NCBI GenBank assembly: GCA_947474365.1
Contig: CANJIU010000046.1
Coordinates: 1 to 64,000, forward strand
Source: Opitutia bacterium
GTDB taxonomy: Bacteria; Verrucomicrobiota; Verrucomicrobiia; Opitutales; Opitutaceae
Reading direction: 5' to 3'
Length of the DNA stretch: 64,000 nucleotides
Positions 11,726 to 54,250 of the stretch are shown in pieces. A program made the position numbers and the translations under genes. The notes under the pieces were generated by a model that saw only the letters and a list, made by a program, of their open reading frames with translations, did no database searches and had not been told where the DNA came from. The stretch's first letter is position 1; the number at the start of each line of letters is the position of its first letter.

Positions 11726-11729
11726 CTTG

Positions 11730-11824
11730 GTTGAGAGTTGAGGGTTGAGAGTCCGAACCTCTCAAAACTCCGGCCTTCAGCTCTCGGCGATTGTTCCCTC
11801 AACTCTCATCTCTCAACTCTCAAC
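11730..11824. repeat. GTTGAGRG inverted-arm repeat between hom and lysC
   Basis: The left arm 11730-11752 is built of GTTGAGAG/GTTGAGGG units. The right arm 11796-11824 carries the complementary units CTCAACTCTCATCTCTCAAC. The arms could pair around a spacer of about 43 nt. The right arm ends 7 nt before the lysC ATG, so it occupies the place of the ribosome-binding region. The same element type recurs at 28652-28792 and 47306-47773. Confidence 0.8.
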
Positions 11825-11831
11825 TTCTGCA

Positions 11832-17900: not shown

Positions 17901-17984
17901 AACCGCGCCACCGGTGCAGGCGGAGACAAAGCGAAGGAAGGCGGCAGCGCGCCGCCGGCCTCTGACGAGGGGTGGGGGAATCAT
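14964..17984 (-). CDS. TonB-dependent receptor with N-terminal carboxypeptidase-regulatory-like domain
   Basis: This is an outer-membrane ligand-gated uptake channel of 1006 residues. From ATG 17984 there is a long basic leader with a hydrophobic core ending AFGATAQ. A CarboxypepD_reg-like beta-sandwich follows (ATITGRILNPATGEYVRNAEIR), then the plug (FLKNLPGVEIDLNADKAQFVRLRGLG, and ADQEANAPAGTINLRSKRAF), then the barrel, ending VRGTF with a terminal Phe as usual for the Omp85-inserted barrel. No substrate can be read from the sequence. It lies 147 bp downstream of the LuxR-type regulator of cassette A, in the same direction, so it could be part of, or controlled by, that cassette. Confidence 0.94.
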   Translation of the reverse strand: MIPPPLVRGRRRAAAFLRFVSACTGGAVLAFGATAQPAGTATITGRILNPATGEYVRNAEIRIEPSGQSIASGDGGFYRVSPVPSGEVTLKVTYTGYTPVTATLNVTPGATISRDFELTSAVERSESGLLKLSKFLVSSGREGNAKAIMDQRNSMNITNTVAAETFGDVSEGNIGEFLKNLPGVEIDLNADKAQFVRLRGLGAEYTAVTVDGISLAGSDANGGAAGNARAFNFEQITLSSLDAIEVFKTVSADQEANAPAGTINLRSKRAFDRKGRRLAWQANVSAFSEDLTTARTYGPDDRKKRKIRPGGSLEYSDVFLANRLGLVLNVTRSDVYSVFSSYTIGYNFTPTAADPRPAVPTTLNPLYGARTNEASTATLTADFKATPNLVLSLGAIYNTVDLWYYMRLTTFTAVSRAAVVGTNPLNSFNSGIGNGRVAVNPQGINKKGKNVTYIPRFEYKRGDLTVDGRFALADSKSWYSPKSWDSVFNLGSPTLNGVTFDANRSDFASGDWKVVQTAGPDWNNGAGYTTPTVIVDDGRFASTKIFSGEISATLKTKGIVPLVWKTGMKMKEEIHRFELERESLQYDYTGPGAGPGAWKDLRSEWPMDLSMLGSTITSVSGGGIFHPNILKVASLYREHPGYFAQSMTATNYYNAFVANRKYYVEDINAAFLMATGTIGKAVFRGGVRYESTEGDAREFDPRTPAELRAAGFAVSGGRATTIPGIQYQYFSQPSVHRRGDYGDLFPSGSFKYRFTGNLDAHVGYSRTVRRPTFRDVAGVWSVDETSLRVNAPNPNLKPEMSDNLSARLAYYFEPVGIVAANFYQNTVKGLFITSELTASEFGYSGDEDLRNYTFVTTTSGPSRTVIRGMELEYSQSLSFLPPLFRGLNARLSYTRNYAEVILPLMAGHSVKAGLSYAWRGLSLYGNLNWSDDFPTNATGTTFRRHRAVVDAGGACQLTNRVSLFFSLRNLFDAPLLNMQKTGAVPALVTSYQSMGTGITLGVRGTF

Positions 17985-18131
17985 GGGAGTGGGACAGGTG
18001 TGGGCCGAACGCGCGACGCAGACAAAGCCGCCGTGTCGCAGGCCACGGTTAATGCGGAGGCCCGCGTCCGCCTCAACTCTGGGGATATGGCACTTTCGGG
18101 CCATTTCCGCCCGAGCATCCGGGGGCGCCGG

Positions 18132-18779
18132 TTATTCCGGGAGCTTCAGCAACCCGCGCCTGATCGCCTCGACCGCGGCCTGCGCCCGATCGTTTACCGC
18201 CATTTTTTCGAGGATGTGGCTGACGTGGCGTTTGACGGTGAACTCGGAAATGTTCAGGGCTGCGGCGATTTCCTTGTTGGCGTGGCCGACGGCGATATGC
18301 GTGAGAATCTCGCGTTCACGTGGGGTGATCGCGGGCTCCAACCGCGCTGTTGCCAGCCGGCGGGCGACGTCAGCCGGAAGGTGACGGCGATTTTGCGCGA
18401 CCGCCCGCACGGCGGCGAGCAGTTCGGCTCGGGACGCGGACTTGGAAACGTAGCCGGAAGCGCCGGCATCGAGTGCAGCCTGAATCTCATCGTCGCGAGA
18501 GAAGTTGGAAAAAATCAGGACGCGGGCGTTCGGGTCGAAGGCGCGCAGTGCTGCGGTGGCCGCCACGCCGCCCTGTCCGGGCAATTGCAGATCCATCAAC
18601 ACGACGAGGGGCCGTCGTTCCCGGTAAGCGTCGAGTGCGTCCTCTCCGCAATCGGCTTCCGCGACCACGCGGATGTCGTCGTCCAATTCCAGTGAGGTCA
18701 TGAGGCCGCTGCGGACCACGAAATGGTCGTCAACGATCAGGACGTCTAGCGTGGTTGGGATCGTGGCGGGGTCAGGCAT
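18132..18779 (-). CDS. NarL/LuxR-family response regulator (cassette A)
   Basis: This is a cytosolic transcription factor of 215 residues. The receiver starts LDVLIVDDHFVVRSG, and the phospho-acceptor is Asp63 in VVLMDLQLPGQGG. The C-terminal LuxR helix-turn-helix is clear (ITPREREILTHIAVGHANKEIAAALNIS). ATG 18779 is chosen because it starts right before the receiver and overlaps the 3' end of the kinase gene by 8 bp, implying translational coupling. Its close paralog is at 25841-26473. The likely targets are the cassette itself and perhaps the TonB receptor gene next to it (inference). Confidence 0.95.
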   Translation of the reverse strand: MPDPATIPTTLDVLIVDDHFVVRSGLMTSLELDDDIRVVAEADCGEDALDAYRERRPLVVLMDLQLPGQGGVAATAALRAFDPNARVLIFSNFSRDDEIQAALDAGASGYVSKSASRAELLAAVRAVAQNRRHLPADVARRLATARLEPAITPREREILTHIAVGHANKEIAAALNISEFTVKRHVSHILEKMAVNDRAQAAVEAIRRGLLKLPE

Positions 18780-20907
18780 GTTCGAGGGAAGGTTTGGTTT
18801 GCCGTGCGGCGCTGGCGGGATCAGGCCGCGGAAAGTCACTGGGTGTGGTGGGGTTGCCCTTCGTGCCATGAGCGAGGGGCAGGATGACTTCCACGATCGT
18901 GCCTTGGCCGGGAGTACTGTGCCAGGCCACCTGTGCCCCGATCTTCCGGGCACGCTCGCGGATGCCGACACACCCAAAATGCCCGGATTTCCCCAGCGTC
19001 TCGGCCTGGACGTTGAAACCGCGCCCATTGTCCCGGACTTGCATCGCCAAGTTGTCGGTCCGCGTGTCGACGTGAATCACGATCTGCGTGGCATCGGTGT
19101 GCTTGAGCGCATTTGTGACGGACTCTCGGGCGATCATGCGCAGATGGTGGATGCTGCTCCCGGGCAGGGGCGGAGGCGGCACGGCAAACTCGGCCCGGAC
19201 CTCGACCTCGCCGCTGTGCCGGGTGGCGATGGCATCAAGGGCGGTGGCGAGGTCGAATTCGGTTGAATCGCGGAGGTCGGAAACGAAGTTCTTGGTCTCA
19301 GCCTGAATGCGGGAGAGCAGGCCACGCGACACCGCGATGATCTGCCGGCCTTTTTCGTCGAACATCCGCGTTGCGGCGGCGTCGAGCCGCAGGCCGAGAC
19401 CAGTGAGATCCTGTTCGAGCGAATCGTGGAACTCCCGGGCGATGCGCTGGCGTTCCTCCAGCGCGGCCTCGGATTCGATCCGTTCGCGCAGCGCAGCGGT
19501 TTGCCGGCGCACTTGCCGGCGCAGGATTGCGATCCAGAGCATGGCGACGAGAGTGACGGCGGCGAGGACGGAGAGAACGCCCAGCAAGCGGCGCATCGTC
19601 CAGTGCGAGGGAGAGGCCAGCACCGTGATGTCTTCGGGCGAACGGATTTGGAGCACGACCGTCGCCGGCCGGGAACTCAGGACGACACTGGTGCTTGATT
19701 CGACCTCGCAGATGCCCGTGACCCGCACCTGCGATCCGAGCGACAGGTCCACATTCATCGCAGGCCCGCGGGCCTGCACGGCATGGCCGCCGCGCTGCAA
19801 GGCGAGCACCACTCCGTTTTCAGAACGGAAAAGATCGGTCAATACGGCGGTCACCGCGACCAGGTCGCCGTCCCGGGTTCCCCCCAGCAGGTCGGGGATG
19901 TCGATTTCCTGGGGTACGGGCGACGGGCCGGCTGCGCGCGCGAGCAGCCTTGCATCCACCACCGTGGCGCTGAACCGGCCCATTTCGGTAAAGCCTAGTA
20001 CGTCGATGCGATCCCCGACTTCCACGGTGGTGGGGGAAAAGAATCGCAGTCCGAATGCCGTCTGGCCGTTGCGCACGAACACGAGAACTTTCGATGGGCA
20101 GGCGGTGATGACGCCGTCGATGCGGATGCGGTGGTTGCCCTGCCCGGCGACCTGGAAGGTGAGCAGATTCGCCGCGGTGATCCGTGGGACGGCGGCTTCG
20201 GGGACGGCGGGCTCCAAGACGGTGATCTCGCTGTCGTTCCGGGTGCGAAGATACGGCTGTACGAGCTGTCGGCGCCGGTTGATGCCGCCGGCGGCCAGCC
20301 CCTCGACCCGAATCCGGCTGTCCACGATCGCACCTTCATCCTCGATTCGGGCGTCCAGCCACACCTCGATGATCCGGGACGCGACGTCGACGCGCAGCAC
20401 GCTGCGGCCTTCGCCGACCGGCGTCACGGATCGGGCGATGCCCTCAATCGCGACGCGCTGATAATGGTAGCGGCCGGAGGTGAGGTCGTCGTAGCCCACC
20501 GTCACGGCCGCCGGCAGCGGGCCGTGTCCGATTATACGATACGGTGCGAGGGCGATGCCCGGGAGATAGTTGCCCGGCTGGGTGCGGCCCGTGACTTCCA
20601 CGATGTCGCCGGGCCGCAGCTGGTCCGGTCTCTCGGGACGGAAAAAAGATCCGGCGGTTTCGTCCTGCAGGAAAACGGCCCCCGAGCCCTCGATGAACGT
20701 CACGGTGCCACGCAGCTTTGCCGCAAGCCCGGTCCTGGCCTCTTCGAACGAAAGCGAGCGGACTTCGATGGCCTGGGTGAGGACGCGCTCCTGCGCGCGT
20801 CCATCGCCTTCGGTCCCGAGGGTGGCGGCGATGACGAGGGCGAAGCGGGGTAGCGGGAACCTCACGAGGAAAAATAGCCGATGACGCCCGTCGGCCTCAA
20901 GGCGCAT
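18772..20907 (-). CDS. NarL-type sensor histidine kinase with OB-like repeat sensor (cassette A)
   Basis: This is a membrane sensor kinase of 711 residues. After a leader ending DGRAQ, the region to about residue 390 consists of repeated units of the pattern 'G-V-x(5)-G-x-FLQD ... LRPGDIVEVTG' (three to four copies, e.g. RPGDIVEVTG, VEVGDRIDVLGF, SLGSQVRVTGIC). They look like OB-fold domains and would lie in the periplasm. One TM follows (LLGVLSVLAAVTLVAMLWIAI), then a short coiled coil and the HisKA_3 motif RIAREFHDSLEQ (His about 494), then HATPase_c (N-box ESVTNALKH, G-box DNGRGFN). ATG 20907 leaves 52 bp to the DUF1501 gene. It pairs with the overlapping regulator. The ligand is unknown. 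Confidence 0.92.
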   Translation of the reverse strand: MRLEADGRHRLFFLVRFPLPRFALVIAATLGTEGDGRAQERVLTQAIEVRSLSFEEARTGLAAKLRGTVTFIEGSGAVFLQDETAGSFFRPERPDQLRPGDIVEVTGRTQPGNYLPGIALAPYRIIGHGPLPAAVTVGYDDLTSGRYHYQRVAIEGIARSVTPVGEGRSVLRVDVASRIIEVWLDARIEDEGAIVDSRIRVEGLAAGGINRRRQLVQPYLRTRNDSEITVLEPAVPEAAVPRITAANLLTFQVAGQGNHRIRIDGVITACPSKVLVFVRNGQTAFGLRFFSPTTVEVGDRIDVLGFTEMGRFSATVVDARLLARAAGPSPVPQEIDIPDLLGGTRDGDLVAVTAVLTDLFRSENGVVLALQRGGHAVQARGPAMNVDLSLGSQVRVTGICEVESSTSVVLSSRPATVVLQIRSPEDITVLASPSHWTMRRLLGVLSVLAAVTLVAMLWIAILRRQVRRQTAALRERIESEAALEERQRIAREFHDSLEQDLTGLGLRLDAAATRMFDEKGRQIIAVSRGLLSRIQAETKNFVSDLRDSTEFDLATALDAIATRHSGEVEVRAEFAVPPPPLPGSSIHHLRMIARESVTNALKHTDATQIVIHVDTRTDNLAMQVRDNGRGFNVQAETLGKSGHFGCVGIRERARKIGAQVAWHSTPGQGTIVEVILPLAHGTKGNPTTPSDFPRPDPASAARQTKPSLEHA

Positions 20908-20959
20908 TTGCGGACGTGCTTCAAACCAACGCCGGGGACAAACCGCGGCTTCGCTGCAA

Positions 20960-22249
20960 TCAAGCGAACAGAGGCGCGATCGGTTTACCCCCGTCGGTGA
21001 TTGGCACGGGGCGGGATCCGGCGCCGAGGTTCTTGGCGGGATCAATCCCCAGCGTGGCATGAATCGTCGCATGAAAGTCTGCGATCGAAACCGGATGTTC
21101 GACAATTTTCGCCGACAGATCGTCGGTGACGCCGTAGGCGCCGGAGTGCCTGAGGCCGCCGCCGGCGAGCACAAGGGAGAAGCTTTCCGGTTGATGGCCC
21201 CGCCCGCCGCCCGCGTCGAATGTTCCCGGGCGACCGAACTCCGTGCCAATGACAATCAGGGTCTTGTCCAGAAGATCCTTGGAAGCCAGATCGCTGATCA
21301 GGGTCGAGAAAGCGGAATCGAGTTCCCGGACGAGGGCATATTGGTTCTGATGGCCGGCGTTGTGGGTGTCCCACCCGGCCCCGTTGATGAAATTCAAGTT
21401 GTGCGAAACTTCGATGAACCGGACGCCGGACTGCACGAGCCGGCGGGAGAGCAGGCAGCGTTGGCCGAACTCGCCGCCGTAGGCCCGGCGGAGCGCCGCT
21501 GGTTCCTCCTCCAGCTTGAACGTCCGCATGAACTCCGGTCCGGCGAGCCGGAGGGCTTCGCGCTGCACCTCGGCGTAGTCCGCGGCGCCGTCCTCCGCTC
21601 GCGGTTGCAGCGACTCCAGGACCGCCTGGCGGCGCACCGTCCGCTCGGCCGAGAGATGTTCCGTGGGCGAGAAGCCGACCGGGCCGGTTTCCGTATCCGT
21701 CAGGTAGATATAGCCGTGCCGCGGCCCGAGGAATCCCGGCCCGCGGCTCACATTGGGATAGCCGATGAGCAGGTAGGCCGGCACCTTGTCGTAAGCCGCG
21801 CCGCGTTCGTGGGCGATGATTGAGCCAAAGGAAGGATAAGTGGTGCTGCCGCTCACCGGTCTTCCGGTGTGGATCAAATTCGTGGCGAGGGCGTGTTCTC
21901 CAATGTTGTGGCGGACCGTGCGCACGACTGTGATCTGCTCGGCCTGCCGTGCGCTTCCCCTCATCGGCTCGGTGAAGCGCACACCGGGAACGGCCGTGTC
22001 AACGATGTCGTAGTCGGTGCCCGGCGTGCTCGGTTTTGCCTTGGAGTTACCGCGCCGCTTCGGGTCAAACGTGTCGATCTGCGACATGCCGCCTCCGAGC
22101 CAGATGAAGATGCAGTGTTCGGCTTTGCCGCGGGGGAATACGCCGCCCGGGGCCGGGGCGGTGACCGGCGTGCCATTGGCGAGGGTCCGGCGGAGCGAGG
22201 TGGTGGCTGCGATTGCGGCGGCGTGTGTGAGGAACGTGCGACGATTCAT
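20960..22249 (-). CDS. DUF1501 protein, Tat-exported (cassette A)
   Basis: This is a 429-residue member of DUF1501, a family with an alkaline-phosphatase/sulfatase-like fold and no established activity. The N-terminus [18 protein letters not shown] is a Tat signal (NRRTFL), so it should fold in the cytosol and be exported. Core motifs include [52 protein letters not shown] and [15 protein letters not shown]. It lies 91 bp downstream of the PSD1 gene and 52 bp upstream of the kinase. Adjacent PSD1-DUF1501 pairs are a hallmark of Planctomycetes and Verrucomicrobia; a joint function is assumed but not known. The paralog is at 28806-30092. Confidence 0.93.
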
Positions 22250-22340
22250 GAGTGGGGTCGGGCTGATTTTTGTAACGCCTCCCGAGGTTGGGAAGATACG
22301 ACGTCGGGGGCAGGGTTCCGGGCCGCTTCCAGGACGGTCT

Positions 22341-25298
22341 TCATAAAATCCGCGTCCATTCCGGAGCGTTGAGCAGACCCCAGAGGACGTCCTCGAAGCG
22401 CTGGCGCCAGTCCTCGGTCAACCGGGTTGTCGGTGGGTCGCCGCGCCGGGCGGCGGCGGCCTGCTCGACGCGCGCGAGATTTGCTTCGCTGCTCATGTGA
22501 TTCGACCAGGCGACATATTTCGGCCGCACGTGTGGGCCGGCCGCCGGGGCCGGGGGTGGGTTCGCTACAATCCGCGTGTCATACCCGGATTTCAGCACCC
22601 CTGCGCATTGCGCGCGCTCCTGCGGTGTCGGCGTGCGGGTCAGCAGGCGGAGAAAAAGGCGATCGATCAATTTTTCGACGGATTGGTTTTCAAGAACCAG
22701 TCGGGTGAGCCCGTGGTCGTCGCTCAGGCGCACGAGCCAATTCATCATCGTGCCGTTTGCGAGCAGGGCGGGCTGGAGCACGTTGGCCTCGACCTTGCGC
22801 ATTCCGCCGAGTGGATCGGGCCGTTCGGCGCGCCAGCCGAACACCTCCAGCACTTCCGAAACGACCTGGTTGCGCGGCAACGAAAGACTGGGACGGTCGC
22901 GTTCGTTGGAGGTAGACGCCAGCATCCAGGAACGGCGGGCAATTCCGAGATCGAGGGAGACGTTCATGGGCCGGGCGCTGTCCAGGTCGATGTTCACGGG
23001 CTCGACCAGGAAGGGTTTGCCCGTGGCCGCAAAAAGCGAATCAACCAGCTGTTCGGCTCCGATCCGGCGAGGAGCGGGAGCGGTGAACAGTGCGCTGGTC
23101 GCGCTGAGCTGCGGATCAACCGCCCGCTGGTAGGCGTGCGACGTGAGGATGAGCCGCGCGATCGCCTTGGTGTCATAACCCGAGCGGACAAGTTCGCGTC
23201 CGAGCCAACGGAGCAGTTTGGGATGGGAGACGGTGGACTTTTCCCAATCTCCCGGCGCCTCAACGAGGCCCCGGCCCATGAAACGTTCCCAAATGCGATT
23301 CACCATGACCTGCGAAAATCGCTCGTTTTTCGGAGCGGTGATCAGTGCGGCGACCCGGTCGCGGCTGTTGTCCGGCTGTTCGACCAGGGCGGCGACATCT
23401 GGCTCGTCACAAAACTGGGCGAACGGCCAGGCCGGCGCCACTTCCGAGCCGGGGAGGAGCGTCACCTCGATGAGCGGCTGGCGGCCGCCGGCCGTCAGGT
23501 GATCCATGGGCACGCTGCTGGAGGTCGGCACCTTGACCGGTTTCCGGTCGAGCATGGCGGCGAAGGCGAAGAGTTCCTTCTGCTTGGAGACGTGGGTCGG
23601 CGAGTCGTGGCAGCGGGCGCACTTCATTTCGACCCCGAGAAAAGCCGCGCTGAGAATTACGCCCTTGGCCGCGGCGGGAACATCGTTTTGCGAAGCGATG
23701 CCAAATCCCGCCGGTCCGCCGAACGACGCACTCCCTTCCATCCGAATCAGTTCGGTGACGAAGAGATCCAGCGGCTTGTTGTCGACGAGCGACTCGTGCA
23801 GCCACCAGCGGAACGGTCCGGTGTTGTTGAGCGTTGGGTTGATCAGATTCGGATTCTCCGCCAGCACGTCCAGCCAGTAACCCATCCCGTGATCGGCCCA
23901 GCGCGGGTCTTGCAGGAGACGATCAATCACGGAGGTGCGGCGATTGGGCGAGCGGTCGGCCAGGAAGGCGGCGATTTCCTGCTCGTCCGGAACCACGCCG
24001 ACCGTATCCAAGGTCACACGACGCAGGAACGTGAGATCGTCGGCGGGCCCGGTGAGGGCAAGGCTCTGCCGCGCGAACTGCGGCCAGGGTGCGCCCTCGG
24101 CGATCCAGCGCCGGAGCAGCGCGATGTCCGCGGCAGGCAGGGGATCCGTCTTGGCCGGCATCCTTTCCTCTGCGTCGGAACTGGTGACGCGCTGGATGAT
24201 CGCGCTTTCCGCGGGCTGATGCGGGACGATGCCCGGGCCGTCGCTCTTGCCGCCGCCCAACGCCGCTTCCCTCAGGTCGAGCCGCAGTCCGCCTTTGACC
24301 TTGGTCCCTTGGTGGCAGCTGTAGCATTGCGTCTCGAAAATGGGCCGAATGTCACGATGGAAGTCGACGTGATCCTCGCGTTGCGACGGTGCATAGTCGG
24401 CGGCCACCTCGGCGATGCGCGCTCCGAGGAAATGATCGATCGCGTTGTAGGCCGGAAAGCCGGCGGGAATCGTGGGAACCGGTTCTTCCGCGGTCATGGC
24501 AAGCCAGCCCCGGGCGACGTCGCGGCGGCGGTTCCAGTAGGCTGCCTGCCCGGCGCGCCTCGCAGCCCGGGCCGCGTTGTTCATCGCCGTGAGTCGCGTG
24601 CGCCGTTCCGCTTCATAGGCCGCCCAGCCCGCATCCGTGTAGCGTACCGGGCGTTTGTCCGAACTGAGCAACGACCAGGTGTCACTGCCTTGGAGCGATA
24701 CCGCCACAACGGTTTCGCCCAGCTCCGGGCGAAAGGGGGTCTTGCTCTTGGGTTCGCGGCAACCGACCAGCGTTTCAAGTACCACGCGGGTTGGTGCGCC
24801 CGAAAATTCGATCACGCTCCAAGATTCGCGGTTGCCCGGCGGTGCAAGCCGGAAATCCGCACCCAAATTAAGGTAATTGTCCTGCTCGTTGAAAAGAACC
24901 CCACCCCCTTGCGCTAGCAATTTCGTGTAAATTCGCGGTTGATCAAAGGGCGTCTCCAGCACCTGGATGTCGTCAATCGTAAGGCGGGCGGGTCCGCGCG
25001 ATCGCAGCAGGATGCGGTGTTTGCCGGCCGGGAGTTGCACAGTGGACGAAGCCCGGACCAGCGAGGGAAACGCGCGGTCGGCGCGGACGCCCGTGGAGAT
25101 GTATTTCTGGGGCAGCTCAAAAAATCCGAACGCGTCCTCCCGGTAACTTTCGGTCGGCTGCACCGCCGCCGCCGGCCAGTCGCCGTTGACGGGAATGTCA
25201 TTCTCGCAAATTTCAACCAAGACCGAGTCGGCGGCCCGCGTGGACGCGGCGAGGGCGAGCAAGAGGAGGCAGGGAAGAATGTGACGAAAACTAGCCAT
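22341..25298 (-). CDS. PSD1 protein: PA14-like / Planctomycete cytochrome c / DUF1549 / DUF1553 (cassette A)
   Basis: This is a secreted 985-residue protein with signal peptide [19 protein letters not shown]. Residues about 25-300 look like a PA14-type beta module ([21 protein letters not shown]). The heme site CYSCH follows (325-329) within a PSCyt1 domain ([41 protein letters not shown]). Next come DUF1549 with a second Cxx[11 protein letters not shown], and DUF1553 ([22 protein letters not shown]). Two CxxCH motifs imply two covalent c-type hemes. It is first in the order PSD1-DUF1501-kinase-regulator. The function is unknown; redox or glycan attack outside the cell is only inferred. Confidence 0.93.
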
Positions 25299-25840
25299 GC
25301 GTTTGGGTCAGTGGGTACTATCTGTAAGAAACGCCAGCGCCCGCGGCTTTTCACGCGCAGCGTTATGGTACTTTAGTGCAAGGGGTGGCCGCTTCGGTGT
25401 GAGTGGGACGCAGGACCCTCGTGGTGCCTTTGCCAGATCTCAGACACCCTGGCGTTCGCCTCGAAATTCTTCCTGGACCCAATCTTCTTCGCCTTACGCC
25501 CCGCAGAACAAGAACCGCCCAAGCCCCGGGTTTTCGGAAATACGCTCGCGCTTTCGAAAGGACCTGGACGCCCTCGTGCGCGGTCACTGCCTCCCGCGGA
25601 ACGCCGCAGCCCGTAGCCTGCGAAAATTGCGGGCGAATTCATGGGCGGTTTCTTGCCTGGCTGACCAATGTCCTTCACCAGCGAATGATGGGGTAGTGTC
25701 TAACCCGTGAGGGTGTCGCCCAGGTCGGGTGTCGGCCCGAGTTGGCCTCCGTTCGGATTCTTATCTCGATCGCGGAACGATCCGGGACACGAAGTAATGT
25801 TTGGCCAGTGCGGGCGGGCCGCCCGCGCTCCCGGGAAAAT
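25299..25840. other. Spacer between cassettes A and B; no gene recognised
   Basis: This 542-bp stretch separates the two cassettes. It holds the REP-like copy at 25810-25832 next to the cassette B regulator. The promoter for the cassette A PSD1 gene should lie in the first 100-200 bp upstream of 25298. Open frames of up to about 137 codons exist on both strands but none has a recognisable domain or start context; they may be decayed coding sequence. Confidence 0.5.
25810..25832. repeat. REP-like 23-bp palindromic element (copy 2, inverted)
   Basis: This is the exact reverse complement of the element at 14502-14524. It sits 8 bp downstream of the stop of the cassette B regulator, the same position relative to a gene end as copy 1 has after thrC. 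A terminator or mRNA-end role is plausible. Confidence 0.8.
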
Positions 25841-26473
25841 TCACTCCGCCATCTTCACGATGCCGCGCCGGATCGCTTCGGCGGTGGCCTGGGCGCGGTC
25901 GTTGACGTCGAGTTTTTCCAGGATGTGGCTGACGTGGCGCTTCACCGTGTCCTCGGAAATCGCGAGCGCCGCGGCGATTTCCTTGTTGGCCCGCCCGCCC
26001 GCGATCATGGCGAGGATCTCGCGTTCGCGCGCCGTGATCGCGGGTCCGAGCCGCAGCGCGTTCAGCCGCCGCGCCAGCTCCGGGAACAGGTAACGCCGGC
26101 CTTGGGCCACGGTACGCAGCGCGTCCAGCAATTCGTCGCGCGTGGCGGATTTTTGCAGGTAGCCCAGTGCGCCCGCGTCGAGTGCCGCCTGGATTTCGTC
26201 GTCGCGGGCGAAGGTGGAGAAAATCAGGACGCGCGCGTTCGTGTCGAAGGTCCGCAGCGCCGCGGTCGCGGCGATTCCTCCCATCCCCGGCAATTGCAGG
26301 TCCATCAACACGACGCGCGGCCGGTGCTGCCGATAGGCCGCGACGACCTCCTCGCCCCGCTCCGCCTCGCCGACCACCACGATCGAATCGTCCAGTTCAA
26401 GCGACGCCGCCAGCCCGCTGCGCACGACAAAGTGATCGTCGACAATCAGGACGGTGAGGGGAGGGACGGACAT
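25841..26473 (-). CDS. NarL/LuxR-family response regulator (cassette B)
   Basis: This is a 210-residue transcription factor and close paralog of the regulator at 18132-18779. The receiver begins LTVLIVDDHFVVRSGLAASLELDD. The phospho-acceptor is Asp58 in VVLMDLQLPGMGG. The LuxR helix-turn-helix is ITAREREILAMIAGGRANKEIAAALAIS. ATG 26473 follows the kinase stop by 2 bp. In cassette A the same two genes overlap by 8 bp, so the junction has shifted slightly since duplication. The recognition-helix region differs at a few positions (NISEFTVKRH versus AISEDTVKRH), which could separate the two regulons. Confidence 0.95.
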   Translation of the reverse strand: MSVPPLTVLIVDDHFVVRSGLAASLELDDSIVVVGEAERGEEVVAAYRQHRPRVVLMDLQLPGMGGIAATAALRTFDTNARVLIFSTFARDDEIQAALDAGALGYLQKSATRDELLDALRTVAQGRRYLFPELARRLNALRLGPAITAREREILAMIAGGRANKEIAAALAISEDTVKRHVSHILEKLDVNDRAQATAEAIRRGIVKMAE

Positions 26474-26475
26474 GG

Positions 26476-28557
26476 TCAGGTGGGGATGGTGTTTTCGTTG
26501 CGGCTGCGAGGGTGGGCGACCGGAGGTGCGTCGATCGTTGGCGGCGTGCCGCTCGGGAACGGGAGCCGTACCTCGACGGTGGCGCCCTTTTGCAGCACGC
26601 TGTGCCACGTGACGTCGGCTCCGATCTTGCGACCGCGCTCGCGGATGCCCGCGCAGCCGAAGTGGCCGCGCCGGCCTTCTGTGGCGATGGCGGCGTCAAA
26701 CCCGCAGCCGTTGTCGACGATCGTCATCGCCAGCGCACCGTCGGGAATCGTGGCCGAGATGGTGACATGCGAGGCGTGTCCGTGCTTCAGGGCGTTGGTC
26801 ACCGACTCCCGCGCGATCATCCGGAGATCGTGCACCGTCGCGGCGGGCAGAACCGGCAGCGGCCCGGTCGACTCGAACCTCACGTCCGCGCCGCTGTCGG
26901 CCGAGTGCCGCGCGGCGACTCCGGCGAGGGCTTTCGCCAGATCACCGGCCGCCTCGTTGGGATCCCGCAGATCGCCGATCAGGTCGCGCGTTTCGGTTTG
27001 AATCCGCGAGACGAGATTGCGCGAGGCCGCGATCAGGTTGCGGCCCTTCTCGTCGATTTCGCGGGTGGCCAGGGCATCCAGCCGCAGGCTCACGCCGGCG
27101 AGTTCCTGCTCGAGCGAGTCGTGGAACTCGCGCGCGATGCGCTGGCGTTCCTCGAGGGCGGCCTCGGATTCGATCCTGTGCCGCAACGCGGCGGTCTGGC
27201 GCGCGACCTGGATTCGCAGCCCGACGATCCAGAGCGCGGCGAGCAGCGCCAGGCCCGCGACGAGACTCAGCGCGACGCCCAGGCGGCGGGCGGTCCACCA
27301 CGGGGGTGATTGCAGCACCACGACGTCGTCCGCGGTGCGCGCGCGGAGACTCACGACGCCCGGGCGGCTCGTAAAACCAGAGCCGGGTTGGGCCGACTCG
27401 ACGCGGCAGACGGCCGTCACGCGCAGCAACGATCCGGTCGCAGGCACCGTTGTTGTCTCGGGGAAGTGCATCTGCAGCGTCCGGGTTTTTCCCTGCAGAA
27501 CAAGAACGGTGTCGCCATCGCTCTTGAAGGAATCGGTGAGCGTGGCCGAGACCGTCACCAGGTGCGCGTCGTGCAGGCCGGTCAGCTTGTCCAGCGTGTC
27601 CACCGGAATTGCCGCGGGGGCCGGCCCCGTTTCGCGGTGGAGGATTTCCGCGTCGACGAGTGACGCGCTGAAGCGGTCCATCTCCGGAAATCCGGAGAGC
27701 TCGAGGCGTTCCCCCGGATTCAGCGTGAGCGGCACGTCCAGCCGCACGGCGAGCGCGCTGGTCTCGTGGCGGATGAATACTTGCCCGCGGGGAAAGGAAG
27801 CGGTGACGACGCCGGCGATGCGCACGCGCCGTTCGCCGTGGCCCGACACGCGAAACGCGAGCAGATCCGCGGCGGAGACGAGCGGAACAGATCCGGCGTC
27901 GGAGGCCGGGTCGGTGATCGCGACGTCGTTCCAGTCGATCACGCGCAGGTAGGGTTGCACGAGCTGGCGGCGCTCGTTGATGAAGCCGGCCGCGAGCCCT
28001 TGCACGCGGACACGGCTGTCGACTGGTGCCCGTTCCCGATCCGGCGGCGCGTCGACCCGCACTTCGAGGATCCGCGAACCCATCGCGAGGCGAAGCAAAC
28101 TCCGGCCTTCCTCGACCGGTGCGAGTGATCGCACGATTCCCTCGACGGTGACGCGTTTGTAGTGGTGGCGGGCCGCCACCAGATCGTCAAAGGTCGCGGC
28201 GATTCCCGCCGGTAGCGCGGCGTGACGCAGGATTTGAAACTCGGCCGGACCGATCCCGGGGAGAAACAGCCCCATCCGCGTCGTGCCCCGCACTTCGATC
28301 TCATCGCCGGGCCGCAGGTCTCCGAGACGGCCGGGACGGAAAAACGCCGTCGACGTGGCATCCTGCACGAAGACGGACGCCGGCTCGATGTACACGACGA
28401 TGCCGCGGAGTGTGACCGGCATCGCCTGCTCGGCCTGCGTGAGGGAGAGCGAACGCACTTCCAGCGCAGTCGTCAGAACCGACGGCTGGGCGGCGGCGGA
28501 CATGGCGGCCAGGGCGAGGAGCACAATGCCCACGAAGCGCGAGGAAAGAGGCTTCAC
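26476..28557 (-). CDS. NarL-type sensor histidine kinase with OB-like repeat sensor (cassette B)
   Basis: This is a 693-residue paralog of the kinase at 18772-20907 with the same order: leader (VKPLSSRFVGIVLLALAAMSAAAQ), OB-like repeats (VFVQDATSTAFFRPGRLGDL with LRPGDEIEVRGT, LNPGERLELSGF, ATGSLLRVTAVC), one TM (LGVALSLVAGLALLAALWIVG), HisKA_3 RIAREFHDSLEQELAG and HATPase_c (ESVTNALKH, DNGCGFD). In the G-box the second Gly-context residue is Cys where cassette A has Arg. The frame is open up to ATG 28617, but that ATG lies inside a palindromic repeat. I therefore prefer GTG 28557, which gives a clean signal peptide. Confidence 0.9.
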   Translation of the reverse strand: MKPLSSRFVGIVLLALAAMSAAAQPSVLTTALEVRSLSLTQAEQAMPVTLRGIVVYIEPASVFVQDATSTAFFRPGRLGDLRPGDEIEVRGTTRMGLFLPGIGPAEFQILRHAALPAGIAATFDDLVAARHHYKRVTVEGIVRSLAPVEEGRSLLRLAMGSRILEVRVDAPPDRERAPVDSRVRVQGLAAGFINERRQLVQPYLRVIDWNDVAITDPASDAGSVPLVSAADLLAFRVSGHGERRVRIAGVVTASFPRGQVFIRHETSALAVRLDVPLTLNPGERLELSGFPEMDRFSASLVDAEILHRETGPAPAAIPVDTLDKLTGLHDAHLVTVSATLTDSFKSDGDTVLVLQGKTRTLQMHFPETTTVPATGSLLRVTAVCRVESAQPGSGFTSRPGVVSLRARTADDVVVLQSPPWWTARRLGVALSLVAGLALLAALWIVGLRIQVARQTAALRHRIESEAALEERQRIAREFHDSLEQELAGVSLRLDALATREIDEKGRNLIAASRNLVSRIQTETRDLIGDLRDPNEAAGDLAKALAGVAARHSADSGADVRFESTGPLPVLPAATVHDLRMIARESVTNALKHGHASHVTISATIPDGALAMTIVDNGCGFDAAIATEGRRGHFGCAGIRERGRKIGADVTWHSVLQKGATVEVRLPFPSGTPPTIDAPPVAHPRSRNENTIPT

Positions 28558-28601
28558 GATTGAGAAGGTAAGAACAGGCTCGTGATCGACTCTCGCAAGC
28601 C

Positions 28602-28649
28602 AGCGGCTTGAGGACAAGCCGCTCCACCTTGACTAAAGCCGTGAGAATT
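28602..28649. repeat. 45-bp palindromic repeat AGCGGCTTGAGG..., diverged copy
   Basis: The hairpin AGCGGCTT-GAGGAC-AAGCCGCT (28602-28623) is followed by CCACCTTGACT and, after a small insertion, GAATTC. It is related to the copies at 33188-33232 and 42861-42905. It lies upstream of the cassette B kinase, overlapping the first codons of its longest open frame. Confidence 0.7.
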
Positions 28650-28651
28650 CA

Positions 28652-28792
28652 GTTGAGAGTTGGTGGTTGAGAGTTGAGAGCAAAACCCATCAAAGGCGGG
28701 CAAGACGAGGGGTGAACGCCACTTTCGAGCGTGATAACGCGCAATTCAGCTCTGAAGATCGAACTCTCAACCCTCATCCCTCAACTCTCAAC
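28652..28792. repeat. GTTGAGRG inverted-arm repeat, upstream of cassette B kinase
   Basis: The left arm 28652-28680 carries GTTGAGAG units; the right arm 28764-28792 carries CTCTCAACCCTCATCCCTCA units. The spacer contains GGCGGGCAAGACGAGG...GAAGATCGA, which resembles the spacer of the 47306-47773 element, so arms and spacer together form one mobile or amplified unit. Confidence 0.75.
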
Positions 28793-28805
28793 TGCTTCTA
28801 CACGA

Positions 28806-30092
28806 CTAACCAAACAGCGCCGCGATCGGTTTTCCGCCGTCCGTGATGGGAACGGGACGGGACGAGTTCACCAGCTCCTTCGATGGATTGACGCCGAGGG
28901 CGGCGTAGATTGTCGCGTGAAAATCCGGAACGGAGACCGCGTGCTCGACCGGCTTGCCGGCGAGATCATCGGTCGCGCCGTAGGCACCGCGATGTTTCAA
29001 TCCGCCCCCGGCCAGCACGAGCGAAAAGACCGCCGACTGGTGTCCGCGCCCGCCGCCGCCGTCGAATTGTCCCGGCCGGCCGAATTCCGTGCCGATGGCG
29101 ATGAGCGTTTTGTCGAGCAGGCCCTTGGCCTCGAGATCCGTGATGAGCGCGGAGATCGCAGTGTCGAGTTCGCGGATGAGGATGTGCTGGTTGAGTTGGC
29201 CCGCGTTGTGAGTGTCCCAGCCGGCGCCGTTGATGAAATTCAGGTTGTGTGAGACCTCGATGAAACGCACGCCGGCCTGCACCAGCCGCCGGGCGAGCAG
29301 GCAGCGCTGGCCGAATTCGCCGCCGTAGCGTTGGCGCACGGAACCCGGTTCCTGATCGAGCCGGAAATTGCGCATGAACTCCGGTCCGGCGAGCCGCAGG
29401 GCGTCGCGCTGCGCGTCTTCGTAATCGCGCATCGCGGAGTCCGGCGAGCCGTGGCTCTGCAGCGGGGCGAGGAGCCGTTGCCGCGCGGCGACCCGTTCGG
29501 GATCGATGCCCTCGGGCGGTGTGAAACCGGCCGGCCCGCTCTCGGTGTCGACGAGGTAGATGTAGCCGTGCTTCGCGCCGAGGAAGCCCGGACCGCGGCT
29601 GACATTGGGATAACCGATCACCATGTACGCCGGGACTTTTTCGTTGGCGGCGCCGCGCTCGTGCGCGATCACCGATCCGACAGACGGATAAATCGTGCTG
29701 CCGCTGATCGGCCGGCCGGTGTGCACGAAATTGGTCGCGAGCGCGTGCTCGATGCCGAGCTTGTGATTCACCGTGCGCACCGCGGTCACCCGGTCGGCGA
29801 GCCGCGCGGTCTGTGCAAGATGCTCGGTGTAACGGACGCCCGGCACCGCGGTCTCGATGAGATCGTAATCGGTGCCGGCGACGCTGGGCTTCGACTTGGA
29901 GTTGCCCCGTTTTTTCGGATCAAACGTGTCGATTTGCGACATGCCGCCGCCGAGCCAGATGAAGATGCAGTGTTCGGCCTTGCCCTTGGGATGGGACACG
30001 ATGCGCGCGGCGTCGGCGCCTCGCAGGCCGGGTGGCAGCGAGGCCGCCGCCGTGGCGGTGGCGACGTGGGAGAGAAAGGTGCGGCGGTTCAT
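28806..30092 (-). CDS. DUF1501 protein, Tat-exported (cassette B)
   Basis: This is a 428-residue paralog of the cassette A DUF1501 protein, collinear with it throughout. Tat signal [18 protein letters not shown]. Motifs shared with [74 protein letters not shown] 30092 was chosen because it begins exactly at the Tat motif and follows the PSD1 stop by 7 bp. About 250 bp filled by repeats separates it from the kinase, whereas in cassette A the same gap is only 52 bp. The repeats therefore inserted after the duplication or were lost from A. Confidence 0.93.
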
Positions 30093-30099
30093 GGGACGT

Positions 30100-33054
30100 T
30101 TATAAAATGTAGGTCCACTCGGGGCCGTTGAGCAATGCCCACACGACGTCTTCAAAGCGCCGCCGCCAGTCCGGGTCGAGCCGGGCCGTCGGAGGATCGC
30201 CGCGCCGGGCGGCCGCCTGCTCCTCGAGGCGCAGCGTGTTCGCCTCGCTCTTCATGTGGTTCGACCAAGCGACAAATTTGCGATGTCCCGCCGGAGGTGC
30301 GGGCGTGATCTCCGGCGAGGCGAGCACGCGCGTCGTGAATCCGGGCCGGAGCGTTTCCGTGTAGATTTTTTTCTCCGTGGCGTTCGGATGACGCGTGAAC
30401 AGCCGCATGAACAGGCGATCGACCAATTGCTCCAGCGGCTGCGGCTCAAGGGCGAATTGCGTGAGCCCGTGGTCGTCGCTGAGCCGCGTGAGCCACGTCA
30501 TCATCGTGCCGTTGGAAAGAAGCGCGGGCTGGAGAACGTTGGCCCCGACTTCCCGCACACCAGGCGCCGGATCGGGACGCGCGCCGCGCCAGCCAAAAAC
30601 CTCCATGACCTCGGCCACGGCTTGGATGCGGGGCAGGGTCAGGCTCGGGCGGTCGCGTTCGTTGGAGGTCGAGGCCAGCATCCAGGCTCGTTTCGCGCGG
30701 CCAAGATCCAGGGCGTTGTCCATCGTGCGCACGCTGTCGACGTCGAGGTTGACCGCTTCGACGGCGAACGGCTTGCCGGTCGCGGCGAAGAGCGAATCGA
30801 CGAGCTGCTCGGCGCCGATCCGGCGGGCGGCGGGCGCAGTGAAGAGGGGACCGGTCTCGTTCCGCTTGGGATCGACCGCGCGTTGATAGGCGTGCGACGT
30901 GAGAATCAGCCGGATGATTTTTTTCTGATCGTAACCGGAGCGGACCAGTTCGCGCGCGAGCCACCGCAGGAAATCAGGGTGGGTCGAGGTTGATTTTTCC
31001 CAGTCCCCGACGTTTTCCACGAGGCCCCGGCCCATGAAGCGCTGCCAGATTCGGTTTACCATCACCTGGGCAAAACGCTCGTTCTGCGGCGCGGTGATCA
31101 GCGTGGCGAGGCGATCGCGGGAGTTGTCGGGATGCTCCGCGAGCGTCGCGACGGTCTGTTCATCGCAGAACCGGGCAAACGGCCACGAGGGTTCCACCGT
31201 CGTGCCGGGTGTGAGGGTGACCTCGATGAGCGGTTCGCGCCCGCCTCCGCGCAGGTGATCGAGCGACACGCTGCTGGTGACCGGCAGCTTGATCGGCTTG
31301 GTCTCCAGCATGGCGGCGAGTTGAAACAATTCCTTCTGCTTCGAGGCGTGGGTCGGGGCGTCGTGGCAGCGGGCGCATTTCATTTCGACGCCGAGGAAGG
31401 CGGAGCTGACGATGATGCCCTTGGCCGCCATCGGCGCGTCGTTCTGCGAGGCGATGCCGAAGCCCGCCGGTCCCCCGAAACGTTCGCTGCCCTCGAGCCG
31501 GAGCAATTCGGTGACAAACAGGTCGAGGGGTTTGTTGTCCAGCAGCGACTCGTGAATCCACCAGCGGAAGGGGCCGGTGTTGTTGAGCGTCGGGTTGATC
31601 AGGTTGGGGTTTTCCGCGAGCACATCGAGCCAGTAGGCCATGCCATGATCGGCACCGCGCGGGTCGGCGAGCAGGCGGTCGATGAGGTGTGTGCGACGAT
31701 CGGGTGAGCGATCGGCCAGGAACGCGGCAACCTCAGACTCGGTGGGAGTGACGCCGACGACGTCGAGGGTGACGCGCCGCAGAAACGTGAGGTCGTCGGT
31801 GAGCGGCGTGAGTGTGAAATTGGTCTCGGCAAAATCCGGCCAGAACGCGCCCTCTTCGATCCAGCGGCGGAGCGTCGCGACCTCCGCGGCCGCCAGCCGG
31901 TCGCCCTTCGCGGGCATGGCATCCTCGGAGTTCGTGGTCGTGATCCGCTGGAAGAGCGCGCTCTCGGTCGGCTTGCCGGGGACGATCGCCGGGCCATCGC
32001 TTTTTCCGCCGAGCAGCGCGGCAGCCCGTTGGTCGAGGCGCAACCCGCCCTTCACCTTGGCGCCCTGGTGGCAGCTGTGACAATTGGTCTCCAGGATGGG
32101 TTTCACGTCGCGGAAGAAATCGACGCCGCCCTTTTGTCGCCGCGGGGCGTAGTCGGCCGAGGCCAGGGCGATGCGGGCGCCGAGAAAATGGTCGATCGCA
32201 TTTTGGGCGGGAAATCCTCCCGGCAGCGCCGGCACGGCGACGTCCGGAGTGGAGGCAAGCCACGCCCGGGCGGCTTCGCGGCGGCGGGTCCAATACGGTT
32301 CGTTCGCCGCCCGCCGATGGGCGCGTGCGGCGGTGTTCATCGCCTCGAGACGGAGGCGACGCTCGGCTTCGTAGGTGCTCCAGGCGCTATCGGTGTAGGC
32401 GATCTGACGCTTTCCCGGCGAAAGCAGCGTCCACTCCGAGGAGCCGCCGAGTGAGAGGGCGACGACGGTCTCGCCGAGCTCGGGTCGGAACGGTTTTTTG
32501 CTCTTCGGTTCGATTCCGCCGAGCAGCGTTTCCAAAACGACCTCCACCGGCGCGCCGGAAAACTCCACCGTCTCCCAGGCCTCGCGGTTGCCGGGCGGGG
32601 CGAAGCGGTAACCGGGGCCGAGATCGAGAAACGTGTCCTGCTCCTCGACGGGCAGTTCGCCCGCGTTGCCGACTGCAAATTGCCGCGGTTGGTCGAACGG
32701 TGTCGCGAGGATTTGTTTTCCGTCCAGCAGGAGCCGGGCGGCGCCGCGTGCGCGGAGGAGCAGGCGATGCCTGCCGGCGGGAACCGATACGGTGGCCGAG
32801 GCGCGGACGAGAGTGGGGAAGGCCCGGTCGGCGCGCACGCCGGTGGCGACGTATTTCTGCGGCAGCTCGAACAGGCCGAAAAAATCCTCGGTGTAGGTTT
32901 CGGTCGCCGCCACGGTGGACTCGGGCCAGGTGCCGTTCTTCGGCAGCCCGTCCTCGCAGATTTCCACGCGCACCACGCCGGCGGGCGCAGCGGCGCGGGT
33001 GGTGGCGAAGGCGAAACCAATGCAGGAGAGAATTAGCAGGAAAACGCGGAACAT
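30100..33054 (-). CDS. PSD1 protein: PA14-like / Planctomycete cytochrome c / DUF1549 / DUF1553 (cassette B)
   Basis: This is a 984-residue paralog of the protein at 22341-25298, with the same order and nearly the same length. Start at ATG 33054 gives signal [19 protein letters not shown]. The PA14-like module contains [22 protein letters not shown]. Heme sites are CHSCH (in [16 protein letters not shown]) and [18 protein letters not shown]1549 and DUF1553 follow ([21 protein letters not shown]). The N-terminal segment ([17 protein letters not shown]) mirrors cassette A ([17 protein letters not shown]). It is presumably exported and bears two c-type hemes; the biochemical role is unknown. Confidence 0.93.
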
Positions 33055-33152
33055 GGGGGCGCGGGCGGGCGCGTCGGCACAAAAGCGCAAGCCGTCGGAG
33101 TTGTCACGCGCGACGACATCACACTCTCGTGCAGGGATGAAAGGGATCGTTT

Positions 33153-35619: not shown

Positions 35620-35636
35620 GGCGGCGGAGATTGGGG

Positions 35637-36962: not shown

Positions 36963-37213
36963 GAAAAAAGGGTGTGGTGACTAGAGGTTCGAGGGACGCG
37001 GGAGCCAAGGAGATTTCCGGTCGCCAGCCATCCAACCAGCCGGAGAGATTCTCCCGCAAGCGGTCGCGCCCGTCGCCGCAGATCTTGCCGAAGGCCGGGC
37101 GATTGCTGTCCAAACTAAAACCTTCGGTTTCCGGTCTGGTCATTCCCTCGCCGGCCTTTCAATGATGCGTGGTCGGGGCGGTGCGGCATTCGCCGCCTCC
37201 CTGCACGTGCCCC

Positions 37214-42905: not shown

Positions 42906-42987
42906 TTTAGGAAACAGCCGCTGCTTGGAGCACTGACCCCCTCCGCATTGCCGCGGGACGGAAGTGAGCCGATTTATTCGCGCACGA

Positions 42988-43133
42988 CGGGCGCATCTCA
43001 ATTTCTGGACTCTGGGGACGCGACGCCCTCGTCGCGTTTCGCCGGCGACGGGGGCGTCGCCGCTCCAGTCACAGCCTCGATTGCAGGTGGTCGTTGGCAT
43101 CTTCCGCATTATCGAAAAGCGGGATGAGTGGCG
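42988..43133. repeat. ~145-bp direct repeat, right copy
   Basis: This is the right-hand partner of 39263-39407, with the same two hairpins and orientation. It ends 67 bp before the PSD1 start codon, so the PSD1 promoter must lie in or beside the repeat. The remaining parts of the 42738-43200 gap are covered by the other repeats listed; no gene is seen. Confidence 0.85.
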
Positions 43134-43200
43134 CCCTCGGCCGTGCTCGCGCTCTCCAGGTTTGACTCGCCGCGGCGCCCCGCGTGCATTCAACGCAGGC

Positions 43201-45777
<2,577 letters not shown>

Positions 45778-45822
45778 CGCGCCCCGCGCCAACTGACGCC
45801 CCGCCCGCATTCCCGATTTCCC

Positions 45823-50683: not shown

Positions 50684-50918
50684 GGAGAGGGTGACCGGAG
50701 ACTTTACGATGGTGAGGCGGTTGCGACCTCTTTTTCCTCGGATTGGGCGGCGTGGCGTTCGGTGCGCGCCCCCGCGCACACTTGATTGCTCGAGCGCATT
50801 TCCATCGGCGCCCAAGCCCCTCTGCCGGGCTTTTCGTCCATGAATGCGCGCCAAGATGATCCGGCCGCGGTCGGCGAGCTTGTCATGCCCACGGCGTTGC
50901 GGTGAAACTCCCGCCGCC

Positions 50919-52625: not shown

Positions 52626-52690
52626 CCCAATCCACTGTGGATGAATCATCCCTCCGCATTCCACGCCTGCCGCCCTTTCGATTTCGCCTC

Positions 52691-54100: not shown

Positions 54101-54250
54101 CGCCTTGCCGACCGATTGGTCAAACTCGTTATCGACAAACTTCCTCTCGGATTTGAGCCTTCACCCGATGACTACCCCGAAAATCGCCAGGCCGGTTTCG
54201 ACAAGAGTTGTAAGCAAATCCAGTTCAATGACGGCAAGCCGTCGGCGTGC

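Follow-up and report, generated by a model that had tools for sequence, protein, structure and literature searches.

The 64,000-nucleotide stretch analysed here (the window; positions 1 to 64,000 of contig CANJIU010000046.1, Opitutia bacterium assembly GCA_947474365.1) carries two blocks of genes, A and B, each encoding a PSD1 cytochrome, a DUF1501 protein, a sensor histidine kinase (HK) and a response regulator (RR). Each block is probably an Opitutaceae operon that is controlled by a two-component system and serves the uptake and periplasmic processing of one substrate. The original prediction, made from the sequence alone, had described a self-contained, signal-controlled unit that had been duplicated in tandem. 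The regulated unit holds up, and the case for it is stronger than first proposed, with support from a gene order that recurs across many Opitutaceae genomes and from a cassette-specific DNA element; the simple duplication reading is wrong. The source genome comprises 10,346,155 bases in 275 contigs and is 97.6% complete and 7.4% contaminated.

Gene content and conservation of the cassette

All eight genes lie on the minus strand in the order and with the lengths first described (985/984, 429/428, 711/693 and 215/210 residues), and their domains were confirmed with Pfam. Block A consists of PSD1_A (22341–25298, 985 amino acids; PSCyt1-PSCyt2-PSD1 at 56, 112 and 150 bits, two CxxCH motifs), DUF1501_A (20960–22249, 429 amino acids; 293 bits), HK_A (18772–20907, 711 amino acids; HisKA_3 and HATPase_c) and the NarL/LuxR-type regulator RR_A (18132–18779, 215 amino acids; Response_reg 91 bits, GerE 68 bits). 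DUF1501_A has a twin-arginine-type N-terminus, scoring 16.5 bits with the twin-arginine translocation (Tat) signal model, under the cut-off of 22.7. Block B consists of PSD1_B (30100–33054, 984 amino acids; the same three domains at 59, 114 and 150 bits, two CxxCH motifs), DUF1501_B (28806–30092, 428 amino acids; 304 bits), HK_B (26476–28557, 693 amino acids; HisKA_3 and HATPase_c) and RR_B, also of NarL/LuxR type (25841–26473, 210 amino acids; Response_reg and GerE). The genes had been described as overlapping or touching, which held for HK_A/RR_A (overlap of 8 nt), HK_B/RR_B (gap of 2 bp) and PSD1_B/DUF1501_B (7 bp), but not for DUF1501_B/HK_B (248 bp), PSD1_A/DUF1501_A (91 bp) or the space between the blocks (542 bp).

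A further cassette member, not noticed originally, is a TonB-dependent receptor of lineage A (14964–18104, minus strand; Plug and TonB_dep_Rec in Pfam). Its open frame starts 27 bp past RR_A and is co-directional with it, and the true start is probably the ATG at 17984, judging from homology that begins only at about residue 40. The gene was counted as the fifth cassette member because regulator-receptor adjacency recurs in relatives. The gap of 542 bp between the blocks held no receptor remnant (tblastn with cassette and receptor proteins, no match below E 0.05), and no Rfam family reached its gathering score anywhere in the window. No B-type receptor was recognised elsewhere in the genome; the best matches there of the receptor of locus L147 were the window's own (57% identity) and paralogues at 53–58% and below.

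PSD1 genes occupy 51 places in the source genome (52 matches, one gene being split), and PSD1_A and PSD1_B belong to a divergent subgroup (154 bits, vs. up to 354 bits for PSD1 in this genome). Among the 11 HisKA_3 kinases, only HK_A and HK_B adjoin a co-directional PSD1 gene, a third (contig C25) lying 3.5 kb from one on the opposite strand. In a search confined to this kinase type, a co-directional kinase was found within 4 kb of only 2 of the 51 PSD1 places.

Scanning genome contigs with the PSD1 pair gave 21 loci, including a single match that was short and weak. In the nine loci with at least 65% PSD1 identity (titled Opitutaceae, Opitutia, Opitutus or Verrucomicrobia), the kinase was always present, as was the regulator wherever the contig extended to it. 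The 11 loci at 55–60% identity, from Gemmataceae, Isosphaera, Chthoniobacteraceae, other Verrucomicrobia and two oddly titled contigs, showed no kinase, regulator or receptor of the cassette kind; nine have at least 2.6 kb of downstream DNA, L042 and L047 ending too early. In nine of these 11, a DUF1501 gene of the cassette type followed PSD1. Members of the genus to which the window belongs carry the distant PSD1 type as well (L107, L124 and L156), with a receptor directly after DUF1501 in L156. The absence of such regulators beside PSD1-DUF1501 genes of other genomes, which had been named as counting against a cassette, is therefore true outside the clade (the 11 distant loci; the 2 of 51 places in the source genome) and false within it. 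PSD1 genes of the cassette subfamily were also found on contigs titled Polynucleobacter (L043) and Bacteroidales (L038); L043 is probably mis-binned, given its very short branches among Verrucomicrobia loci.

Gene order was compared among 38 clade loci outside the window, which came from genome searches (200 genomes of the family, 27 of the genus), from fetched regions, and from L035; only positions where the contig continues were counted. DUF1501 was followed by the clade kinase in 24 of 27 loci (exceptions L090, L105 and L148), and the kinase was preceded by DUF1501 in 24 of 26, otherwise once by PSD1 and once by the receptor. The regulator followed the kinase in every case (26/26). A TonB-dependent receptor came next in 17 of 22 loci, and two of the other five (L088 and L090) carry it elsewhere in the cassette. 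The complete order PSD1-DUF1501-HK-RR-receptor was found on a single contig in 11 loci. The cassette with its two-component system is so far known from one family, the Opitutaceae.

Several irregular loci were also seen. L200 (G126, 10109–12354), outside the 38, is a decayed cassette in which a truncated PSD1 continues into a kinase fragment; the regulator that follows looks intact (74% identical to RR_B), and the locus has neither DUF1501 nor an operator-like site. Genome G195 holds four cassettes (L086–L089), several of them frameshifted or without DUF1501, representing decaying copies or assembly errors. Two tandem receptors stand behind the cassette of L104 (G067). On contig C156 (L163:6410–13403), a receptor paralogue is directly followed by another PSD1-DUF1501 pair, so that linkage between receptor and PSD1 is not confined to the cassette.

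A conserved 32-bp element upstream of PSD1

In 24 of 26 aligned PSD1 upstream regions, an element of 32 bp, TGCACGAAAGTGKGATGNCGNNGCGCGTGAAA, stood 17–75 bp ahead of the aligned start codon, a site being counted when 19 or more of its 29 specified bases agreed (the highest value in 300 shuffles was 19). The two regions without it were those of L148, which has no kinase and regulator, and L089, where PSD1 is degraded. Two loci, L086 and L150, reached just 19 bases. When each of the 24 sites was scored with a position weight matrix (PWM) built without it, values ranged from 25.7 (L150) to 50.4 bits, except for L086, whose site is unsupported because it scored 10.3 bits.

In the window, putative operator A (25349–25380, minus strand) lies 50 bp 5' of the PSD1_A start and scored 41.5 bits with the PWM from all 24 sites, and it has two mismatches to the core pattern; putative operator B (33102–33133, minus strand) lies 47 bp 5' of the PSD1_B start and scored 42.4 bits, with one mismatch. 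With a PWM built without the window sites, they still reached 38.3 and 38.7 bits, respectively. The next-best place in the 64 kb was a degenerate operator-like site (18071–18102, minus strand; 8.1 and 9.6 bits with two PWMs) just 5' of the receptor, about 87 bp from its probable start. Sites upstream of the receptor, none of which had entered the PWM, were found in 16 of the 17 loci where the regulator is directly followed by a receptor (24.7–42.3 bits). The exception, the A-type locus L084 of G182, has a degenerate site at a distance of 88 bp, vs. 87 bp in the window. Four PSD1-upstream sites outside the PWM set (L085, L088, L035 and the first site of L145) scored 31–43 bits.

Sites of at least 9 bits were absent from the 11 distant PSD1 loci (2 of them with little downstream DNA), from three loci of another PSD1 type and from three loci of paralogous kinases. 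Nor was one present in L148, where PSD1-DUF1501 stands without HK and RR, in the decayed L200, or in L202, L072 and L124, which are of other types.

The element was likewise rare at the scale of whole genomes. With up to two mismatches, the core pattern matched the source genome three times, at both PSD1 promoters and one other place, vs. once for the reversed control. With up to three mismatches it matched the window twice, vs. a mean of 0.20 in dinucleotide shuffles, of which 1 in 100 reached two. Across 200 family genomes, a match with at most one mismatch was found in 14/14 genomes with a clade kinase, recognised by a best match above 600 bits where no other genome exceeded 316, and in 5/186 others (p 1e-17, kinship ignored). 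Perfect matches were found in 12/14 and 2/186, respectively, and the reversed control matched 0/14 and 3/186. The figure of 14/14 and the p-value are not independent evidence, because 13 of the 14 kinase genomes (all but G081), together with G112 and G160, supplied the sites behind the pattern, and relatives were counted as independent. G081, which lay outside the pattern set, has a perfect site before its receptor. Three of the five kinase-negative genomes with the element had single one-mismatch matches, as in the control; the other two (G112 and G160) carry a clade PSD1 and perfect sites with no detected kinase, in assemblies that are incomplete or fragmented. The element is rare outside the cassette and is no family-wide promoter.

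Further operator-like sites were seen on contigs of G043 and G195 not shown to hold a cassette: G043:C35 and G043:C138, as well as L188 (G195:C19) and L199 (G195:C364), where the short flanks contained no recognised cassette gene. In L201 (G160:C507), two operator-like sites are separated by 3 kb; a receptor follows one of them, and no cassette protein was recognised in between.

Relationship of blocks A and B

Identities between A and B (BLASTP) were 68% for PSD1, 68% for DUF1501, 51% for the kinase and 74% for the regulator; within the kinase, the sensor regions were 47% and the cores 61% identical. Fourfold-degenerate sites agreed at only 42–47% in the four gene pairs, and A and B are for this reason regarded as old paralogues. 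The kinase, PSD1 and DUF1501 trees were built with a quick method and carry only Shimodaira–Hasegawa-like approximate likelihood ratio (SH-aLRT) support, and the regulator tree carries bootstrap and SH-aLRT values. An A clade, made up of the window with G206 and G182 where present, was recovered for the kinase (3 rows at 100), PSD1 (3 rows at 100) and DUF1501 (2 rows at 100); the regulator A clade had 4 rows at 97/99, including L086 of G195. The block B genes grouped with the widespread type; in the regulator tree, which is weakly resolved, RR_B fell outside the A group. Approximately unbiased (AU) tests rejected A and B as sisters for the kinase (p 1.35e-44), PSD1 (7.8e-73), DUF1501 (2.0e-4) and the regulator (6.9e-4). 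A and B are old paralogous lineages, not a recent tandem duplication.

The window receptor paired at 100 with the receptor beside the A-type kinase of G182, and in an unrooted tree of 21 rows L088 and one of the L104 receptors stood on the A side, with the other 17 opposite at 100. The A-type pieces of G182 are on two contigs, PSD1 on one and kinase-regulator-receptor on the other, both ending at a contig edge, and a B cassette with its own receptor is on a third. In G206, a PSD1 gene nearer to PSD1_B (70%) begins 214 bp past the A cassette and is cut off at the contig edge; this end overlaps the end of a B-type contig by 128 bp at 97%. Judging from these sequences, G206 probably has a tandem arrangement too, with A before B, opposite to the order in the window.

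An A-type cassette acquired by horizontal transfer beside a resident B-type one, as opposed to an old duplication within the lineage, is possible, if somewhat doubtful. The A clade comprises three species only (the window, G182 and G206), A and B stand on separate contigs in G182 and in reversed order in G206, and genes of G195, which belongs to another genus, join the A side (the L086 regulator at 97/99, the L087 PSD1 weakly at 89). Against transfer, the three A-clade genomes belong to one genus, and the genomes searched yielded no outside donor that carries a complete A-type cassette.

Predicted properties of the cassette proteins

The AlphaFold2 model of HK_B (30-row alignment) had a mean predicted local distance difference test score (pLDDT) of 81.6, mostly 85–95 in the sensor blocks, and a predicted template modelling score of 0.53. 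It showed four five-stranded groups followed by a long helix running into the kinase core, which we read as four tandem oligonucleotide/oligosaccharide-binding (OB) folds before a membrane helix. By extension from this model, the N-terminal sensor of HK_A would also consist of tandem OB folds. In Foldseek, the best match of HK_B was p204 HINab, which we take to be a tandem OB protein; the template modelling (TM) score was 0.15–0.16 over the whole model, so that the likeness refers to the domain folds only. The other matches listed were histidine kinases and related signalling proteins, including DesK. H479 of the kinase, presumably the phospho-acceptor histidine, was invariant in 30 rows, and D58 of the regulator, presumably the phospho-acceptor aspartate, in 18 rows. 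With HisKA_3 and its conserved histidine, REC and its conserved aspartate, and a GerE helix-turn-helix, the pair has the features of the NarL/DesK type; the best NCBIfam matches were NarQ, NarX and NarL, all under cut-off. The two, adjacent in 26/26 loci, may be a cognate pair, though adjacency bears on this only indirectly.

In PSD1_A and PSD1_B, all three Pfam domains scored above cut-off, and CxxCH motifs stand at residues 325 and 560 of each; these are predicted c-type haem motifs. Sequence relatives in the PDB were absent for DUF1501 and limited, for PSD1, to weak cytochrome c6 matches on PSCyt1. DUF1501 matched PF07394 over nearly its full length (293 and 304 bits, profile positions 1–389 of 390). 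The DUF1501_B model (mean pLDDT 74) gave 231 Foldseek matches at E up to 0.001 (TM 0.31–0.47), the best 50 of which were sulfatases, sulfamidase, lipoteichoic-acid-synthase-like proteins and one alkaline-phosphatase-superfamily protein. The fold in this moderate-confidence model resembles the sulfatase/alkaline-phosphatase superfamily, to which DUF1501 may belong, and acidic and histidine residues are conserved in the DUF1501 alignment. The best NCBIfam model for the receptor was TIGR01782 (TonB-Xanth-Caul), at 266 bits for the window and 297 bits for L147, below the cut-off of 310.

Substrate of the cassette

Upstream of block B (33337–39247) lie genes for a HEAT/F5-8C protein, a Tat-type Gfo/Idh oxidoreductase (35640–36962) with a weak glycoside 3-dehydrogenase match, and, beyond the latter, an FAD oxidoreductase (FAD_oxidored, 37214–39244). 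The HEAT/F5-8C and Gfo/Idh genes are kept upstream in L031 (= L152), L045 (= L149) and L048 (= L147), and the pair was not found in the other loci included in that search. An open frame at 36001–37143, considered as a conserved neighbour, was rejected as being in the wrong frame, the real gene there being the Gfo/Idh-type oxidoreductase. Sulfatases and a GH39-like protein are encoded at 50844–56728, outside the cassette. The sections of He et al. (2017; PMC5615132) considered here report carbohydrate-binding modules in PSCyt proteins and sulfatase neighbours, and suggest from these that PSCyt proteins, if carbohydrate-degrading, would act on mono- or oligomers imported into the cell. On the strength of the neighbouring genes and this published context, the substrate is in our judgement most likely a glycan, a view held with fair though limited confidence.

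A role in respiration, redox or metal/haem homeostasis instead of carbohydrate processing appears rather unlikely. Such a role would suit the two haem-binding motifs of PSD1 and the weak similarity of the receptor to the haem/transferrin receptor models TIGR01785 and TIGR01786, and TonB receptors import metal chelates and haem too. Against it stand the receptor's best model, which is TIGR01782 albeit below cut-off, the surrounding oxidoreductase, sulfatase and GH39-like genes, and the carbohydrate-binding modules and sulfatase neighbours mentioned in those sections of He et al. (2017).

Proposed regulatory circuit

In the proposed circuit, a DesK/NarX-like kinase would detect a ligand through its periplasmic sensor of four OB-like folds in tandem, and the cognate NarL-type regulator would then bind the 32-bp operator. 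Binding would drive PSD1-DUF1501, probably through to the kinase and regulator, and a second operator copy would drive the TonB-dependent receptor. The receptor would carry the substrate into the periplasm, where it would be processed by PSD1, which has two haem motifs, and by the sulfatase-like DUF1501. Blocks A and B would be anciently separated versions of this unit, placed head to tail here, with the receptor accompanying A only.

A number of observations weigh against this circuit. Binding of the regulator to the putative operator is proposed from sequence. The site of the window receptor is too weak alone, not exceeding the shuffled-window maxima (11.6 and 10.3 bits for the two PWMs, 20 mononucleotide shuffles), and is backed by its position and by the similar site of L084. 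The element also occurs without a detected clade kinase. L156 (G213; 9794–9825) has a 25.6-bit site 17 bp 5' of an in-frame ATG, with neither kinase nor regulator, before an outgroup-type PSD1 whose DUF1501 adjoins a receptor. L105 has a perfect site, yet no kinase lies between DUF1501 and the receptor, where the contig ends; in G112 (assembly 82% complete) no kinase lies between DUF1501 and the receptor on the contig; and in G160 no clade kinase was detected and the contig ends. Conversely, kinase or regulator genes without a supported element are found in L086, L089 (degraded PSD1) and L200/G126. L086 mixes an A-type regulator with a kinase and PSD1 outside the A clade, indicating some shuffling between lineages, and cassettes of G195 are frameshifted. 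No carbohydrate-active enzyme (CAZyme) and no SusD were among the Pfam matches of the cassette proteins, so that the link to carbohydrate comes from the neighbouring genes and from published work. For block B, which lacks a receptor in the window, no import route is assigned.

Some of these points would also suit a core promoter or the site of another regulator, with the cassette kinase and regulator controlling something else. The element lies just 17–75 bp from the aligned start codons and could overlap a -35 region; G112, G160 and G213 carry sites although no kinase of the clade was detected there, and in L086 and L200 the regulator is present but a supported site is not. This explanation is nevertheless improbable. 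If the element were a general promoter or the site of a global regulator, it would be expected throughout the genome, whereas it is nearly confined to the cassette in a genome of 10.3 Mb, recurs before the receptor as well as before PSD1, and is missing from L148, which is without HK and RR. Weakest is the original suggestion, based on the head-to-tail order and similar gene lengths, that a single cassette was recently duplicated in place in this lineage; it is refuted under the models used, and hardly credible, given the AU rejection of A and B as sisters in all four genes (the kinase and regulator pairs among them, which are not each other's closest relatives), the A-type genes beside B-type ones in G182 and G206, and fourfold-degenerate sites only 42–47% alike. 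The AU result defeats local duplication and not the cassette, since each of the four trees separates A from B.

Returning to the regulated operon, A and B may tentatively be viewed as insulated circuits, in which regulator residue and operator diverged together and two ligands separately switch two PSD1-DUF1501 machines. The residue at the position of Asp175 in RR_B, which we take from NarL-family structures to lie just before the recognition helix, was Asp in 14/14 B-type rows and Phe in 4/4 A-type rows. The sixth base of the operator was G in the B-type PSD1 sites except L150; in the three PSD1 sites of the A clade it was T, T and C.

Comparison with known systems

PSCyt/PSD1-DUF1501 pairs of Planctomycetes and Verrucomicrobia have the same domains, PSCyt1, PSCyt2, PSD1 and DUF1501, according to the parts of two studies considered here (PMC5615132, PMC2754498). 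The cassette goes beyond these pairs in having a two-component system of its own, a TonB-dependent receptor and a DNA element specific to it. In the sections concerned, He et al. (2017; PMC5615132) state that PSCyt2/PSCyt3 genes usually adjoin two uncharacterised families and that their function is wholly unexplained, and Wecker et al. (2009; PMC2754498) suggest that a PSD1 protein is regulated by an extracytoplasmic function (ECF) sigma factor. A passage of PMC4452313 credits Kamneva et al. (2012) with an analysis of DUF1501 gene clusters. No prior description of the regulated PSD1-DUF1501 arrangement was found among the papers listed by the literature searches, most subscription journals being outside their scope.

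NarX-NarL and DesK-DesR share with the cassette the HisKA_3 kinase core and the REC-GerE regulator, and Foldseek matches included DesK; the cassette differs in its sensor, read as a tandem OB-like array, and in an element found at essentially one locus per genome, not genome-wide. Polysaccharide utilisation loci of Bacteroidota combine a TonB receptor with periplasmic enzymes and are regulated by a sensor in the membrane; a SusC/SusD pair and a hybrid two-component system (HTCS) are among their features. The cassette likewise has an outer-membrane TonB receptor, periplasmic proteins and a membrane sensor, as predicted, but it lacks SusD, CAZymes and a hybrid HTCS, with PSD1 and DUF1501 in place of glycoside hydrolases. 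Some Planctomycetes and Verrucomicrobia have dozens of PSD1 and DUF1501 copies, and the function of these proteins is still a long-standing question. With its own sensor, regulator, importer and candidate control site, the cassette turns this question into a screen, in which a compound that fires the operator would point to the substrate.

Other features of the window

A classical PSD1-DUF1501 pair lies on the plus strand at 42964–47295 (PSD1 316 bits, DUF1501 520 bits), and its relatives sit divergently beside the cassette in L083, L092 and L150. Between the cassette and this pair, the gene at 39815–41692 (plus strand) encodes a TIR_2 domain (33 bits) near its N-terminus; a second TIR-TPR protein is encoded near a paralogous receptor on contig C194 (L164:3682–5037). 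The gene at 48758–50950 (minus strand) encodes two alpha/beta-hydrolase stretches, BD-FAE and Abhydrolase_3 each being matched twice.

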